Translations under genes and position numbers: made by a program
Shown: one piece after another, positions 27,600 to 50,515 of the stretch
Position numbering within the stretch: position 1 is the first letter of the stretch
How the letters are laid out: each line of letters begins with the position of its first letter
NCBI RefSeq assembly: GCF_035621495.1
Contig: NZ_CP141821.1
Location: 1,206,760-1,270,759 of the forward strand
Direction of reading: 5' to 3'
DNA length: 64,000 bases
Source of the DNA: Thermococcus sp. SY098
GTDB lineage: Archaea > Methanobacteriota_B > Thermococci > Thermococcales > Thermococcaceae
Notes under the pieces: generated by a model
Seen by the model: only the letters and a program-made list of their open reading frames with translations
Database searches by the model: none
Told to the model about the DNA's origin: nothing

Positions 27600-27624
27600 C
27601 AGTTTCCTTAAACTTCATTCTCGA

Positions 27625-27702
27625 GGGGCCGTGGGGTAGCTTGGCCTATCCTTCCGGCTTCGGGAGCCGGGGACCCGGGTTCAAATCCCGGCGGCCCCAC
27701 CA
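27625..27702 (+). tRNA. tRNA-Pro (CGG), host of the integrated element
   Basis: The cloverleaf folds: acceptor stem GGGGCCG pairs with CGGCCCC, the anticodon stem CCGGC/GCCGG encloses the loop TTCGGGA with anticodon CGG at 27661-27663, and the T arm reads CCGGG-TTCAAAT-CCCGG. The discriminator is A and CCA is encoded (27700-27702). The 3' 47 bases from the anticodon stem on are repeated at 48812-48858, and the integration keeps the gene intact. Confidence 0.97.
27656..27702 (+). repeat. Attachment site, left copy (tRNA side)
   Basis: A 47-bp sequence running from the anticodon stem of tRNA-Pro to its CCA end, identical to 48812-48858. The bases outside differ at both ends (C versus A before, A versus T after), so this is the exact core duplication left by site-specific integration. 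Confidence 0.95.
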
Positions 27703-27965
27703 AATTTAACTTCTTGAGCAATTCTGGTGGTTCCTCATCAAAGAAAACCCATCTCGCCATTTGATTGAAAAACTGCGACTTGTTAATGGCTAAGGCATTC
27801 ATTTCCTCGACCACCTCTCTATCTAGAGTGATGTGTAAGCGTTTCTTTCGCTTCTTTTGCGCCCTAACTCCTTTGTGAGAGCCGCTATTTTTATGCCCAC
27901 TCCTACGCATATAGACCCACTACTTGGAGTATGGCCGAGGATGTTAATATTTGTTGGCATTAGAA

Positions 27966-28909: not shown

Positions 28910-29060
28910 TTTGTTTTGCAAGTTCCTCGCAAACCTCTCTGAATTCACAGACCTCACAAATTTCCCCGTATGCTATGTTGATTAGTCCCAAGCACTCCAT
29001 TTCTTCCCATTCGTCTTCCTCTTCCCAAAATTCTTCTTCCTCAAACTCTTCCTCAACCAT
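28878..29060 (-). CDS. Small acidic four-cysteine protein
   Basis: A 60-residue protein: the first 22 residues are almost all Glu/Asp with aromatic residues, then four cysteines (C23, C35, C38, C44) in the order C-x11-C-x2-C-x5-C. The last three copy the CxxCx5C spacing of Cas4/AddB-type Fe-S clusters, but zinc binding is equally possible. The acidic part could mimic DNA. It lies three genes downstream of the PD-(D/E)XK-like protein of the same operon. Confidence 0.6.
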   Translation of the reverse strand: MVEEEFEEEEFWEEEDEWEEMECLGLINIAYGEICEVCEFREVCEELAKQNDEEEREGRG

Positions 29061-30715: not shown

Positions 30716-31030
30716 TCAGCCCTCCCTATCCATGTTTGAGTAAAAGTCAAGCTGAGGATCAACATCAATAGGCAGCACATCATTAGCCATGTCTATCAGC
30801 TCTTCTTCACCAAAGAAGCCCTCCACTGGCTTTTTGATATGCTGCATATCAACCAAGTAGTAGAACCCACTCTCGGCCCTATCCACAACGCCCTTCCTCC
30901 TGAGTGCTTCCAGCAAAGCCTTGACCTCCTGCGCCGGCATTCTGAGCTCTTGCACGAGGTCGCTAACCAAAGCCGGAGCCCTCTCCAAAGCCTCCAAAAC
31001 CTGCAACACCTCAACACCCCTAACCTGCAT
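30716..31030 (-). CDS. Winged-helix DNA-binding protein; homologue targeted by CRISPR spacer 5
   Basis: A 104-residue protein with a MarR/ArsR-like winged-helix domain (APALVSDLVQELRMPAQEV, then VKALLEALRRKGVVDRAESG and a wing to about 62) and an acidic tail. The start is coupled to the upstream stop by TGATG. The segment encoding LVSDLVQELRMP (30936-30973) is a divergent match to a host CRISPR spacer. Confidence 0.75.
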   Translation of the reverse strand: MQVRGVEVLQVLEALERAPALVSDLVQELRMPAQEVKALLEALRRKGVVDRAESGFYYLVDMQHIKKPVEGFFGEEELIDMANDVLPIDVDPQLDFYSNMDREG

Positions 31031-32210: not shown

Positions 32211-32560
32211 GCTTTCACCTCCTTTAACAAACATTGAGAGATTTGAGATGTGAGAGTAAGCAGAAAGAGGACATCATAATCAATAGTTTTCTTTGTTGTT
32301 TCCTTGTGGAGGGTTATTCCAAAAGCCTCCAACCCTTTAACCTCAATCCAATAGACCTTTACCTCAAGCTCCGGTGGCTTTCCTCGCTCCCATGTATATG
32401 AAATCTGAATATTCTTACCAGTCTTTAAATCCTTCAAAACAGCCCAATCAATGATGTAGCTCCTCCTGTACTTCTTTGGAGAGGTGTGTATTTCTTCAAT
32501 CTCAAGCTCCGGAATTTCCCGAACGACCTTTTTGACTAAACGCTCAATCAAATAACTCAT
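32207..32560 (-). CDS. Element protein of unknown function
   Basis: A 117-residue protein with a beta-strand-rich middle (SYIIDWAVLKD, VKVYWIEVKG) between helices. GGAGGTGGTTGA precedes the ATG. Overlaps of 4 bp on both sides place it in the chain of coupled genes 30.2-33.2 kb. No family is recognised. Confidence 0.6.
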   Translation of the reverse strand: MSYLIERLVKKVVREIPELEIEEIHTSPKKYRRSYIIDWAVLKDLKTGKNIQISYTWERGKPPELEVKVYWIEVKGLEAFGITLHKETTKKTIDYDVLFLLTLTSQISQCLLKEVKA

Positions 32561-35444: not shown

Positions 35445-36872
35445 CTAAAGGGTTTGTGAGGGTCGGAAGAATATTCTCTCAGTGTAAAACTTGTTGTAAG
35501 AAAAATATCCCCTACCACGGTACTTTTTCTTTAACTTTTCAAGCTCAAGTGGGCTTCTTGCAACAATTTTCTCGTATTTTTCGTCAAAATCCTCGATGAG
35601 GTTGTTTAGAATCTGGAAGTCTGTTTTGCTGGCTAATGCTCCCATGATTGCTATGTGTGTTGCTCCGTAAACGAGATCGTGGGGTAGTCTGTGCAGGTAT
35701 TGGGTTGCTGTTATTAATGCTACTTGGTTGCTCCTCCCCTCACGGAAGAGTTTATTTACTGCATACCAGCCCCATTTGTCTCTGAGGTAATTCTGCACCT
35801 CGTCAACAAAAACAAAAACTGCAGTGTCTCTTTTTCTTGCGAATTCGTCTATTGCATAGTCTATTACTTTCTTGAAAATTAACAGTTCTTCCTTTTCTGT
35901 GAGCTGGCTGTTTTGAGAAAAGTCTATGACGTTGATTTTGTCATTGTCGATGATTTGGAAAATATCTTGTCTTTTGTCATCGTTTTTAATCAAGATTTTG
36001 CTACGTTTTAACAGGGTCATGACGCTTTTAACGCCCATGTAGGTGCTCTTTTTTGCATCTTTGCCAGCTTTTTGGATGAGTTCTATGTATGCATCCCTTA
36101 TGACTTCATCTGGATCTCTCATTCTCCTGTAATCCCACCGTTCTTCGATTTCTCTTCCATAGATGCTACTCAATGGGATTGTGGTGAAACGGGCTACTTC
36201 TCTGTAATTTAGATGTTTATATCTGAGGTAGCCGGTGGTTACTTCTGCTGTTGGCCCGCTGTCGAGTGCTATGTCTTTTAGATCTCTTGTTGGGTTGAAG
36301 ACTATTCTTCGCATTGGATAAGCTTCTGGTTTGAGTCCGAAGTGGCCGAGGAGTGTGTTCCCCTTGCTTCTTTTCTTTAAGCCAAGGATGTTGGGCCAGG
36401 CCAATGCAAAGTCTCCCATTAAGCCTACTCTTACTGTTCTCTCTTCATTACCAACGAGTATTTTCTGTCCTGAGTGTTCGAGCAGGTATATGTATACTAG
36501 AAAGTCTTTGTAGTTAGGGAGCCTTTTCTCTAAACCTGCCTCGCTGTATTTGTCAAGTAGTTCATAAAATGTTTCTCTAACGAGGATTGCTTTACTTTTG
36601 TCGTATTTTCTTTCAAACACTAAGATAAGGGGTTTTTCATTATGTTGTCCCCATGTTGTGTGCCAAAGTTCTTGGATTAGCGCCCTCATGAACGCTGTCT
36701 TCCAGAATCCCGATGGTCCTAAGATTAGCATGTGCGTTGCCTCATCTGGTTTGAGTATCAGGTGTCTTTTCACGCCTTCTTCCTCTTCTTTTGTGTTCCC
36801 ATGTCCTATGAATATCCTCTGCTCAATATTGTTATGTAGTTGTATGTTTGGAGTTTCAACAGCTTCAGCCAT
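35445..36872 (-). CDS. HerA/FtsK-type P-loop ATPase
   Basis: A 475-residue ATPase. Walker A is GPSGFWKT (about 52-59), with a tryptophan where most P-loops have glycine. Walker B is AVFVFVDEVQNY (about 345), followed by a sensor-like ALITATQYLHRLP. The layout matches HerA/VirB4/FtsK-like motors that move DNA or assemble surface structures. GAGGTG lies 6 bases before the ATG at 36872, and a TATA-like GGTATAATTT is upstream. In such elements this ATPase is thought to drive packaging or transfer; that is inference. Confidence 0.85.
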   Translation of the reverse strand: MAEAVETPNIQLHNNIEQRIFIGHGNTKEEEEGVKRHLILKPDEATHMLILGPSGFWKTAFMRALIQELWHTTWGQHNEKPLILVFERKYDKSKAILVRETFYELLDKYSEAGLEKRLPNYKDFLVYIYLLEHSGQKILVGNEERTVRVGLMGDFALAWPNILGLKKRSKGNTLLGHFGLKPEAYPMRRIVFNPTRDLKDIALDSGPTAEVTTGYLRYKHLNYREVARFTTIPLSSIYGREIEERWDYRRMRDPDEVIRDAYIELIQKAGKDAKKSTYMGVKSVMTLLKRSKILIKNDDKRQDIFQIIDNDKINVIDFSQNSQLTEKEELLIFKKVIDYAIDEFARKRDTAVFVFVDEVQNYLRDKWGWYAVNKLFREGRSNQVALITATQYLHRLPHDLVYGATHIAIMGALASKTDFQILNNLIEDFDEKYEKIVARSPLELEKLKKKYRGRGYFSYNKFYTERIFFRPSQTL

Positions 36873-37015
36873 TTTCCACACCTCTATATCTCAAACTAAC
36901 CCGTTCATTTTACTAAAACAAAAATTATACCCTCTCAGGTGATTTTTAATATTTTCAACTTTTTCGGCAATCATCCAGCTTCTTTTTCAAAATGAACATC
37001 TTTCCCACCACCTGA

Positions 37016-41272: not shown

Positions 41273-43360
41273 CTACCAGAATTTGAGTTTGCTGATTAAT
41301 GGTCCCAATAAGTGCTCTCCAACAAACTTGCCAGAGAACCATCCCACGAGGATCACCAATCCAAGGAAAGAACCCATAGGTCCAAGGAATTGTCTGCCGA
41401 ACCAAGTAACGGCTGCTGCAATCATTATTACAACCAAGTCAGCCATTGTAAGCCCGAATGGAAGGCTGATGCCACTTAAAAAGTTTGAAAAGTCCCAATG
41501 GGGTTCATATTGTTTTGCAAGAGCCTCAATGTTTTGTGCTTGTTCTGCGTTCCATTTTGCCTGTTCTTTGAGCCCGTTGGTTGCTTTTATTGCCGCATTA
41601 AGCCAAAAGTCACCAGCGTCTTCCATTTTTCTTGCATAATTTAACCAGTTGAGGGCCCATTTTTTATCTTTGCCCTTCTTTACCTCTTCGAGATATTTGT
41701 CGAGGCCCTTTTCTGCTTTGTCGTAAGCTTCTTTCGCCCTCTTTGCATATTCAATGCCTTCAGGAATGTTCATTGTCTCGGCCTTTGCTCTTAGCTCGTC
41801 TGCTTGTAGTTTTTTCTTTTCAAGTTCTTGCTTGATTGTGTTGACAAGCTGTTGTGCTGCTTCTATATCAGCCGCAGTTACTTGTGACTTATTCGTTAGT
41901 TCAACAAGGGGCTTAACCCTCGAATCCTTGAAAGCAATCTCAATGTTCTCTTGCACGGAAACTTTTGGAACGACCATAAACCATATTGGAATCTTGACCC
42001 CATCATCACGAGTCAATTCAAGATAGGCAAGTCCAGCAACAACATAGTCAATAGTATCATTCGTTGAAGTGTACTTGACTGGTAAACCAAGTTCATAAGA
42101 AGTTGTGAAATCAGTCATCTTAGTTGACTTCGTGTAAGCTATCTCCCATTCTCCTCCTTTAATAACTCTCGCAACAATGATTCTGAAGTCATCGCCGAAA
42201 ACTGGAGGTTTTCCATTGACTTTTATCAGCGGATCAAAGTACTCAGGAACCGCTTGGAAAATGAACTTCCAGTTTGCTGTTGAATCCATCACATGAATTG
42301 GTGTCGCCATGCTGATGACTTCAAAGTTTGATAGGGCTCCATAAAGCCGTTGTTGGAATATTTGATACATGTCAACATACTCAGAATTCAACATACTTTT
42401 TGGAGCGCTGGCAGTTAGGTTTCCAAACTGTCCAAAATCTGGAACTCCAGAAGTATGCATGTAAGCGCTCGTGGTTTCTCCAACAACGTCAGTATCAGCC
42501 ATACCAGTGAAGATATAACAGGTCTTCGTAGTATTATCGTAAACGTATTTGCTACCTCCAGCAAGACTGCTACACTCTTCTTGACTGTCTGCTGTCTTCC
42601 ACTCCCACATCTCCCTTTGAGCCTGAACCTCAACGCCTATCTCAAAACGAGGAACAACCGCATTGGTGAGGTTATGGTAAATATTTCTGTTAAAAGTACC
42701 AGAGTAAACTGCATCTCTCACCATGTAAACGTAATCATCTGGAACTTTCAGCACTGTTCCAAGAACAAATTCTTCACCGTTTAACAGTGGGACATCATCA
42801 CCGCTCCAAGACCACGTCCTTGTCCAGAGCTTTTGACCTGTTTCCGTATCAATTACATAAACTTTGACGCTGTACAAGTGCAGATAAGCCCAATCCGGGT
42901 TCTTCTTTGCAACAGTGATCTTGACCTGAACAGGGAAGGCACTGAATCCATAAACTTTATCGGGCCCATACACTTCGACCTTTAAATCTCCAAGAGAGCC
43001 CTGCTGCTGGTAATCATAGCTCACAAAATCGCTCATCAGCATCTGAGTGTACTTTGCAAGCTGCTTGTACGCCTCCTGCTGTGCTTCCTTGGAAAGCTTT
43101 AGCCACTCCTCATAATCCTTTCCCTCTAAAACGTCTTCCGTTGTTGCATTTTTATCTGCAGTTTCTGTTTCTCTGGATGTAGGTGCTTTCTCTTTCCCCC
43201 CTCCCCCATGAGTTACAACATATGTAGTTCCGGCTCCAGCAATAAATGCCAATATTAAAGCCACAACAACCCATACCGCAAACCTGTAAACTACGAACCT
43301 CTTGAGCTTTCTTGGATTCATATTAACAGAAATAAACGGAAAAGGAAAATTCACGTACAC
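41273..43360 (-). CDS. Large anchored surface protein with C-terminal coiled coil and two helices
   Basis: A 695-residue protein. An N-terminal helix (VVALILAFIAGAGTTYVV, about 33-50) anchors it, a large extracellular beta-rich region follows (about 100-500) with two cysteines near 276 and 292, then a coiled coil (about 530-625) and two C-terminal helices (MADLVVIMIAAAVTWFG and FLGLVILVGWFSG). GGAGGTG lies 7 bases before the GTG start at 43360; a further ATG at 43321 is possible. It is the largest protein of the element and may form the spike or a fusion-like machine. Confidence 0.75.
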   Translation of the reverse strand: MYVNFPFPFISVNMNPRKLKRFVVYRFAVWVVVALILAFIAGAGTTYVVTHGGGGKEKAPTSRETETADKNATTEDVLEGKDYEEWLKLSKEAQQEAYKQLAKYTQMLMSDFVSYDYQQQGSLGDLKVEVYGPDKVYGFSAFPVQVKITVAKKNPDWAYLHLYSVKVYVIDTETGQKLWTRTWSWSGDDVPLLNGEEFVLGTVLKVPDDYVYMVRDAVYSGTFNRNIYHNLTNAVVPRFEIGVEVQAQREMWEWKTADSQEECSSLAGGSKYVYDNTTKTCYIFTGMADTDVVGETTSAYMHTSGVPDFGQFGNLTASAPKSMLNSEYVDMYQIFQQRLYGALSNFEVISMATPIHVMDSTANWKFIFQAVPEYFDPLIKVNGKPPVFGDDFRIIVARVIKGGEWEIAYTKSTKMTDFTTSYELGLPVKYTSTNDTIDYVVAGLAYLELTRDDGVKIPIWFMVVPKVSVQENIEIAFKDSRVKPLVELTNKSQVTAADIEAAQQLVNTIKQELEKKKLQADELRAKAETMNIPEGIEYAKRAKEAYDKAEKGLDKYLEEVKKGKDKKWALNWLNYARKMEDAGDFWLNAAIKATNGLKEQAKWNAEQAQNIEALAKQYEPHWDFSNFLSGISLPFGLTMADLVVIMIAAAVTWFGRQFLGPMGSFLGLVILVGWFSGKFVGEHLLGPLISKLKFW

Positions 43361-47711: not shown

Positions 47712-47981
47712 TCACCTCCTTAAAAGGGCATAAATTGCGAGTTCCCTCTGTTTCAGGCTTTTTCTCATTCTCAAGAACTCCTTTGTCTTCTCAACATTTC
47801 CTTTGAGCCATGGCGCAATCATAAAAGCGTGTAATCTTGCAAAACGCCCATTCAAGAGTTCTAGCTGCTTTTCAATGTCCTCTAATTCCGTCTTAACAAA
47901 CTTCCAAGGTCTAAAAAGTGCATCATACGCAACCAACAAAAGTACCCCACCAACAAGAATTACGCCGAGAACCTCAATCAT
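47712..47981 (-). CDS. Small membrane-anchored coiled-coil protein
   Basis: An 89-residue protein with an N-terminal helix (VLGVILVGGVLLLVAYDALF) and a coiled coil (KTELEDIEKQLELLNGRF). The start ATG overlaps the integrase stop codon (ATGA), so translation is coupled to the integrase gene in the excised form. Function unknown. Confidence 0.6.
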   Translation of the reverse strand: MIEVLGVILVGGVLLLVAYDALFRPWKFVKTELEDIEKQLELLNGRFARLHAFMIAPWLKGNVEKTKEFLRMRKSLKQRELAIYALLRR

Positions 47982-48856
47982 CCTCCCACCTCCAACACAT
48001 TCTTTAACTCATCAACCACCCGAGAATAAGCCTCGTCTGCCTCGAACTCTAAGTCAAGATAGTGCTCCTCGAGAACGGTCTGCCCAACTTGCCCAATGAT
48101 AAATTTGATAACGTGATCCTTCACTCCACGTCTTGAGAGAAACGTTGCAAACCATCCTCTTATTGAGCGAGCAGAAACTTTCTTGTATGCTACTTTCTTG
48201 TGTAGAGTTCCATACTTGATTTTCTTAACTTTCCTCAATTCCTGTAGAAGTTCTTTAGGCATGTAAATAAATGGCGTTGATTTCTTACCGAGACGCCTGC
48301 CAAGATGGTACTTAATGAAGTTCTCATGCACCTCAACCCTATCAGGGTCAAACTCCTCAAGCATCGCTTGAATTGCTTTTAAGCGTGCTCCACTAAAGAC
48401 CAAGATTTTGAAATACAGTTGGATAACTTCATCACTATGCTCGAGGTGATACCTCCAAGCTTCTGCAATTTCATGATCTTTTGGCTTTGGCTCAGCTTTC
48501 TCCTTCCGAGTTTTCTTTAGCGGCGTAAGTTCATAGTAAAGTTCATACTCATCCCTCGAGATTATGTTACGCTTTTTGAGAAAAGTGTAGAACTTCCTTA
48601 ATGCTTTACACAAATTCTTTGCATAGTTCCTTTTCCTTAGAGCTTTCTCCAAATCCTCGTGAGTTCTGACTTTGAATTTGTCAAAAAAGCTCTCCAGCAA
48701 CCTGAGATATTCCTCCGCAGTTTCTTTTCCCAACTCTCCAAGCTCCACTTGCCCCGAGAGCCACTCTAAGAACTGCGGCCTAAATAAGACCCACAAATCG
48801 GAGAGACTGGAGGCTTCGGGAGCCGGGGACCCGGGTTCAAATCCCGGCGGCCCCAC
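47978..48856 (-). pseudogene. Integrase catalytic fragment, Int(C), SSV-type tyrosine recombinase
   Basis: The 292 residues from the attachment site on carry the catalytic core: the box I arginine is in SGARLKAI, the second arginine region is SARSIRGWFATFLSRRG, and the nucleophile is the tyrosine in EEHYLDL. The gene has no start of its own while integrated; the open frame extends about 27 residues further into host sequence. Joined to the N-terminal fragment at 27608-27910 it makes an integrase of about 362 residues, so the enzyme is inactivated by integration and restored by excision. Confidence 0.93.
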
Positions 48857-48858
48857 CA
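48812..48858 (+). repeat. Attachment site, right copy
   Basis: A second, identical 47-bp copy of the tRNA-Pro 3' part. It marks the right end of the element. Only 100 bp of host sequence (48859-48958) separate it from the first CRISPR repeat; I see no gene in that stretch. Confidence 0.95.
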
Positions 48859-48958
48859 TCACTACTTCTGGCTGTTCTTTGTCAAAGAAGAGAAAATTTA
48901 AGCAGACAAGTTTTATTGAAATTGTCCAACAGATCAAGACTGCACAATCAGAGCAGTA

Positions 48959-50515
48959 CTTTCAATTCTCTTGAAGTCTTATTGGAACTTTAACTTTATT
49001 TTATTCCAGGAGGTGGAAAAATGAAACTTTCAATTCTTCTAAAGTCTTATTGGAACCAGGACTGGAGCCTGAGACTGAAGAAATAGTGAGCTACTTTCAA
49101 TTCTCTTGAAGTCTTATTGGAACACGTGAGGCATACCCGTCAAGCCTCCTCTTCAATGCCTTTCAATTCTCTTGAAGTCTTATTGGAACGTAGCTTGACT
49201 CAACGCTCTCAACTGTAAAGCCATCAGAACTTTCAATTCTCTTGAAGTCTTATTGGAACGGCATTCTGAGCTCTATTGCAAGGTCACTAACAAGGGCCTT
49301 TCAATTCTCTTGAAGTCTTATTGGAACAATCCGCTTATCCTCACTTAATATTAGTGAATCAATTCTTTCAATTCTCTTGAAGTCTTATTGGAACTCTTAA
49401 TTTCAGAAAATACAGAAAATAAGCCAACTCTTCTTTCAATTCTCTTGAAGTCTTATTGGAACCAGCCTTTCGTTGAACCAATTTTCAGACCCGCTCAGTT
49501 CTTTCAATTCTCTTGAAGTCTTATTGGAACCAAAAGAAGTTGTCTCTGGAGGAATGCTTAGTAATCCAGCTTTCAATTCTCTTGAAGTCTTATTGGAACC
49601 TCTCATATAGGCTTGTGCACAGGCTTGACGATCTGTTTGCTTTCAATTCTCTTGAAGTCTTATTGGAACTTGGTTAGACAGATTAGGGTGGTGATAAAGA
49701 TGAGGAAAAATATCTTTCAATTCTCTTGAAGTCTTATTGGAACCATTAAGCGGGTGATGTAATCAGTTGAAAGCTTTTCATGCTTTCAATTCTCTTGAAG
49801 TCTTATTGGAACCCGTGAGGCAGAACATAGTAACAAGACAAGCGATAACTAACTCTTTCAATTCTCTTGAAGTCTTATTGGAACGCTTCTTTTGAAGCTC
49901 TGAATAAATTCTGCTGAGCATTAAGCTTTCAATTCTCTTGAAGTCTTATTGGAACTAAGCGACATCATCAATAAAGCGACTGCTAAGACATTTCTTTCAA
50001 TTCTCTTGAAGTCTTATTGGAACCAGGAGTGAAAGCTTTTCTCTGCTTTTTACATAATTTGCTTTCAATTCTCTTGAAGTCTTATTGGAACTTTGCGTTT
50101 AGTTATGACAACCCGTTATACATAATATATGCTAACTTTCAATTCTCTTGAAGTCTTATTGGAACCCAAGTTTCATGACAGCCTCAAGAAGAGGCTTAAA
50201 CTGCTTTCAATTCTCTTGAAGTCTTATTGGAACAGGCAAAGCCTCGATGTCCACCATAAGCGTGTGTTCGTCTTTCAATTCTCTTGAAGTCTTATTGGAA
50301 CACACAGCATGGCCAAGAAGGTCGCCGATGAATACGGCTCTTTCAATTCTCTTGAAGTCTTATTGGAACTCGTCGGGAGGAAAGCCGATATCAAGGAGAT
50401 AAGCTCTGATGGCGCTCTTTCAATTCTCTTGAAGTCTTATTGGAACGCGTTATTGATGTTTACATTAACATCACTCTCCTGGCTTCTTTCAATTCTCTTG
50501 AAGTCTTATTGGAAC
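48959..50515 (-). CRISPR. CRISPR array, 23 repeats and 22 spacers
   Basis: A 30-bp repeat, on the plus strand beginning CTTTCAATTCTCTTGAAG and ending CTTATTGGAAC, occurs 23 times (first 48959-48988, last 50486-50515). Spacers are 36-47 bp. Read on the minus strand the repeat begins GTTCCAATAAGACT, as in Thermococcales arrays, so the leader is on the right. The second repeat from the left end (49027-49056) differs at 3 positions, while the terminal one is perfect. No cas gene lies in the window, so processing depends on distant cas loci. Spacer 5 (49260-49297) resembles the resident element. Confidence 0.98.

Follow-up and report, generated by a model that had tools for sequence, protein, structure and literature searches.

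A CRISPR spacer resembling a gene of the resident pT26-2-family element in Thermococcus sp. SY098

Spacers against pT26-2 plasmids occur in 30% of Thermococcales genomes, and among 12 Thermococcales that carry such a plasmid, five have a spacer directed at another plasmid of this family (Badel et al. 2019, PMC6972569). In Pyrococcus furiosus, CCN is the reported motif of the type I-B system for targeting and uptake alike (PMC8406132), and partial matches can prime uptake (reviewed in PMC7694759). We analyzed a stretch of 64,000 nucleotides from Thermococcus sp. SY098 (hereafter the window) in which an integrated element of the pT26-2 family lies beside a host CRISPR array, one spacer of which resembles a gene of that same element. 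The following features define the element and the array.

27608-27910, minus strand: probable N-terminal part of the integrase, overlapping the tRNA gene (from its position)
27625-27702, plus strand: intact tRNA-Pro (CGG), the integration site, with one att copy at 27656-27702 (tRNA gene and direct repeat)
27703-48858: integrated pT26-2-family element, 21,156 bp (T26-6p domains, 47-bp direct repeat, empty site in a relative)
41273-43360, minus strand: homologue of T26-6p, the signature protein of the pT26-2 family (Pfam 7.7e-35, 1.9e-26 and 1.6e-23)
47978-48937, minus strand: C-terminal part of the integrase, Phage_integr_3 (Pfam), apparently split by integration, judging from its position
48812-48858, plus strand: second att copy, 47 bp of the tRNA 3' end (direct repeat)
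48959-50515, minus strand: CRISPR array with 22 spacers between 23 repeats and the leader at its right end (Rfam CRISPR-DR6; leader comparison)
49260-49297, minus strand: spacer 5, counted from the left, or the 18th of 22 when counting starts at the leader (array order)

The integrated element and the adjoining array

Membership in the pT26-2 family is carried by the signature protein, in which all three T26-6p Pfam domains score above the cut-off; among the seven core genes of the family, Pfam recognized only this one and a DUF87/HerA-like ATPase (35445-36881). The Thermococcales branch is marked by site-specific integration, a split type I integrase and att sequences of about 44-53 bp, and the element shows a 47-bp att, a Phage_integr_3 domain, an empty counterpart site and an integrase whose position suggests the split. 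The DNA of one element end found nothing in plasmid and phage collections. In the sister genome G087, which represents the empty site, the intact tRNA gene joins the left flank directly to the right flank, and a CRISPR array follows about 100 bp further. The tRNA gene and the array were thus already neighbours when the element inserted between them. The tRNA-Pro gene and an array are also near each other in G090 and G091, and by comparison of these sequences the pairing is an old neighbourhood.

The sequence to the right of the window array (past 50515) recurs beside two further arrays of the same genome, on their leader side. With the leader on this side, crRNAs are read on the minus strand, and spacer 5, as the 18th of 22 from the leader, is among the older spacers of its array. 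The second-last repeat (49027-49056) is the repeat variant of the array at 1035 kb of the host genome, GTTCCAATAAGACTTTAGAAGAATTGAAAG, which suggests exchange between arrays.

Spacer 5 and its counterparts in the winged-helix gene

The gene resembled by spacer 5 encodes a small winged-helix protein, and the matching site lies within it as follows.

30716-31030, minus strand: gene of the element for a small winged-helix (MarR_2-like) protein with an MQVRG start (Pfam MarR_2 2.3e-6; homologues start at or near MQVRG)
30936-30973, minus strand: imperfect protospacer, 29 of 38 bases identical to spacer 5 (ungapped alignment)
30974-30976, minus strand: CCG PAM, adjoining the 5' end of the protospacer in the crRNA sense (sequence)

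Re-alignment bore out the original observation of an ungapped match at 29 of 38 bases (0.763 identity), including 15 consecutive identities, which fall at the PAM-distal end. The CCG motif stands where it had been placed, immediately 5' to the minus-strand protospacer. The orientation of the array, fixed through the shared leader, puts this motif on the correct side for a type I system. Nine mismatches separate spacer 5 from the resident gene, at crRNA positions 3, 4, 6, 12, 18, 20, 21, 22 and 23 counted from the PAM; the PAM-proximal three had been anticipated. The differences had also been described as mostly synonymous, which holds for four of the six changed codons (five of nine bases), no more than a slight majority in the comparison with the resident; the other two change A to V and I to Q. 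Shuffled spacers (n=880, whole window) never equalled the score of spacer 5, reaching a top identity of 0.69, and when all spacers of the genome were reversed or complemented (n=222, over 727 kb), the best result was 26/37.

Among 94 genomes of the Thermococcaceae, close orthologues of the winged-helix gene were found in only two others, and a search of a named genome collection led to the same contigs again, three in all and each from a MAG. Together with the resident copy these give four known alleles, L065, L068 and L069 being the others, of which L068 and L069 are two contigs of one MAG (G064). Spacer 5 is closer to two of them than to the resident: the protospacer in L069 (G064:C251) matches at 33/38 and that in L065 (G091:C10) at 31/38, both with a CCA PAM, while L068 is weaker (27/38, PAM CCG). 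A CCN motif thus stands at the protospacer site in all four alleles. In translation the spacer reads ALVSDLAIELRMP against ALVSDLAMELRMP in L069, a single change of I to M. No perfect source protospacer was found, 33/38 being the best, and no perfect match was seen in an unrelated genome region. Searches of plasmid and phage records gave chance-level matches only, and viral contigs held neither a relative of the winged-helix protein nor an exact match to the degenerate protospacer pattern. The presence of closer protospacers in orthologues agrees with the earlier proposal that spacer 5 came from a relative with the same gene, and the spacer most likely descends from another, diverged allele.

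Spacer 5 is accompanied by others with affinity to the family. A search for repeats within three mismatches, which would miss arrays with more distant repeats, found four arrays with 111 spacers in the host genome. These were scanned against loci taken as stretches of DNA around the family's T26-6p genes; as element borders were not drawn individually, a given match may in principle lie just outside an element. Seven of the 111 spacers match pT26-2 elements or the surrounding loci above every control (p below 1e-10).

A1035k.14: 35/38 against T26-6p loci, three of three changes synonymous
A283k.7: 32/36 against T26-6p loci
W.18 (spacer 5): 33/38 against T26-6p loci
A98k.7: 33/40 against T26-6p loci, seven of seven changes synonymous
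A98k.19: 31/37 against T26-6p loci, six of six changes synonymous
A98k.6 (spacer 6 of the array at 98-101 kb of the host genome): 31/38 against the resident element itself, a second imperfect protospacer at 28962-28999, plus strand, flanked by AAT and lacking a CCN PAM
W.21 (spacer 2 of the window array, 49057-49093, minus strand): 30/37 with PAM CCA, against a nuclease-like gene on G011:C8, a contig that also carries T26-6p

Most changes across the seven are synonymous in the coding frame, and a CCN PAM accompanies four of them (chance about 6e-5). The resident element is matched better by A98k.6 than by spacer 5 (31/38 against 29/38). None of the 111 host spacers matches it perfectly, which leaves no trace of uptake from it, primed or not. 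Spacers of neighbouring arrays in sister species reach at best 27/37 against the element. A single DnaQ-like gene on G011:C8 (L116, 6189-6705) is matched by both A98k.7 and W.21, each with PAM CCA. A candidate match of spacer 2 to 32481-32517 in the window (25/37) was rejected as chance level; its better relative lies on G011:C8 (30/37). The weak matches of A1035k.7, A1035k.10, A1035k.3, A98k.12 and W.9 were left out because their translations disagree.

Expected failure of interference and alternative explanations

The host genome encodes type I-A (Cas7/Csa2, Cas8a2/Csx9, Cas5a, Cas3', Cas3'', Csa3 and Cas6) and type I-B genes (Cas7/Cst2, Cas5, Cas3, Cas4, Cas1 and Cas6) at 81-98 kb. For type III, no Cmr2 was found in the genome, and Csm1 gave only a 24-bit match, below the cut-off. 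Type III targeting calls for a Cas10 gene and a crRNA complementary to the target RNA; the crRNA of spacer 5 has the same sense as the mRNA of the matched gene, which such an effector could not use in any case. With no recognized type III system and a crRNA of mRNA sense, DNA targeting alone applies. In type I-E systems, crRNA position 6 is flipped out, and it probably does not count as seed here. With nine mismatches, two of them at the unambiguous seed positions 3 and 4, interference is expected to fail despite the PAM, and the seed match of the resident protospacer would appear insufficient. We propose that the host took its 38-base spacer from a pT26-2-family plasmid whose winged-helix allele differed from that of the resident. 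The resident copy would be a diverged homologue that keeps a usable CCG PAM, and the Cascades of the two subtypes would most probably not permit cleavage by Cas3, leaving the chromosome unattacked; the element would then have entered or stayed because of this presumed failure of interference at nine mismatches. We hold this reading as a whole, a spacer from another allele and a resident too diverged for attack, to be highly probable. Within it, the persistence of the resident may reasonably be owed to the mismatches; other causes might be an anti-CRISPR or cas genes that are poorly expressed or no longer functional.

That the similarity of spacer 5 is fortuitous, or would be shared by any winged-helix gene with the same motif, draws on the recognition-helix region being common among winged-helix proteins and on the imperfect match to the resident taken alone. 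Chance alone is expected to give about 1e-4 matches of at least 29/38; the figure is 4e-5 when 22 spacers are set against the element and 7e-4 when all 111 are set against the window. The similarity is one of DNA, rises to 33/38 in an orthologue and comes with a PAM. A codon-degenerate pattern of the spacer, run over the 94 family genomes, matches nothing beyond spacer 5, the resident gene and two orthologues, and no equally good match was found in an unrelated gene, which makes coincidence extremely unlikely. A block on CRISPR interference by the element or another locus, as through an anti-CRISPR, would explain the persistence of the resident in place of the mismatches; the resemblance of a second spacer to the element (31/38) and the many uncharacterised small genes in the element speak for it. 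Tolerance at nine mismatches, or at seven without a CCN PAM, needs no extra cause and no anti-CRISPR was identified, so that we regard such a block as very unlikely.

Spacer 5 might instead have been taken from the resident element's own lineage, which then escaped through mutations in the protospacer. Mismatches at PAM-proximal positions 3, 4 and 6 alongside a preserved PAM are what such escape might leave, and the two G064 alleles are unusually divergent within the protospacer (11/38 against 9/133 outside; permutation p 0.006 before correction for six pairs). The resident itself is no more different inside the protospacer than in the gene core around it when compared with L065 (6/38 and 33/133), L068 (5/38 and 35/133) or L069 (11/38 and 34/133), and in no pair of the resident and a relative are differences significantly denser inside. 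Its seed differences from spacer 5 are synonymous, and its TTTGG and CTCCG bases also occur in L068, from a different genome, so the seed bases predate this host. The seed mismatches are synonymous and no more concentrated than the differences in the remainder of the gene. They show no sign of escape selection and look like lineage divergence, and we judge an origin in the resident's own lineage to be a distinctly improbable account. The two G064 alleles (L068 1623-1820 and L069 524-727) are nearly identical outside a strongly different central patch that covers the protospacer. In an alignment of few sequences, the winged-helix alleles look like a mosaic. Recombination among plasmids could reshuffle the gene, with exchanged patches at the protospacer evading spacers by allele exchange and not by point mutation, an idea that we consider very improbable.

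Comparison with known systems

This locus is a further and well-documented instance of a published pattern, and as the pattern was already described, the general view is unchanged; the new part is that the homologous site is still recognizable in the resident element. With its PAM, orientation and graded orthologous protospacers, it is a clean case in which the CRISPR memory of a host and the plasmid it carries point to different members of the same plasmid family. As a naturally occurring near-miss target, the site could also serve to measure mismatch tolerance and priming by the I-A and I-B systems of hyperthermophiles.

Like Pyrococcus furiosus with its I-A and I-B (I-G) systems, the host combines a repeat matching Rfam CRISPR-DR6, a CCN PAM and cas genes of both subtypes, but it differs in having no Cmr (III-B) in its genome. 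The element resembles TKV2/TKV3, PHV1, TGV1 and TbaCH5, integrated pT26-2-family elements of Thermococcales of similar size and att length, whereas its own site is a tRNA-Pro gene with a CRISPR array some 100 bp away, a pairing present in an element-free relative. The carriers described by Badel et al. 2019 (PMC6972569) likewise join an integrated pT26-2 plasmid to a spacer against another family member; the coordinates of the present element are absent from their Table 2, and to their pattern the present analysis adds a comparison of alleles and the likeness that spacer 5 still retains to the resident copy.
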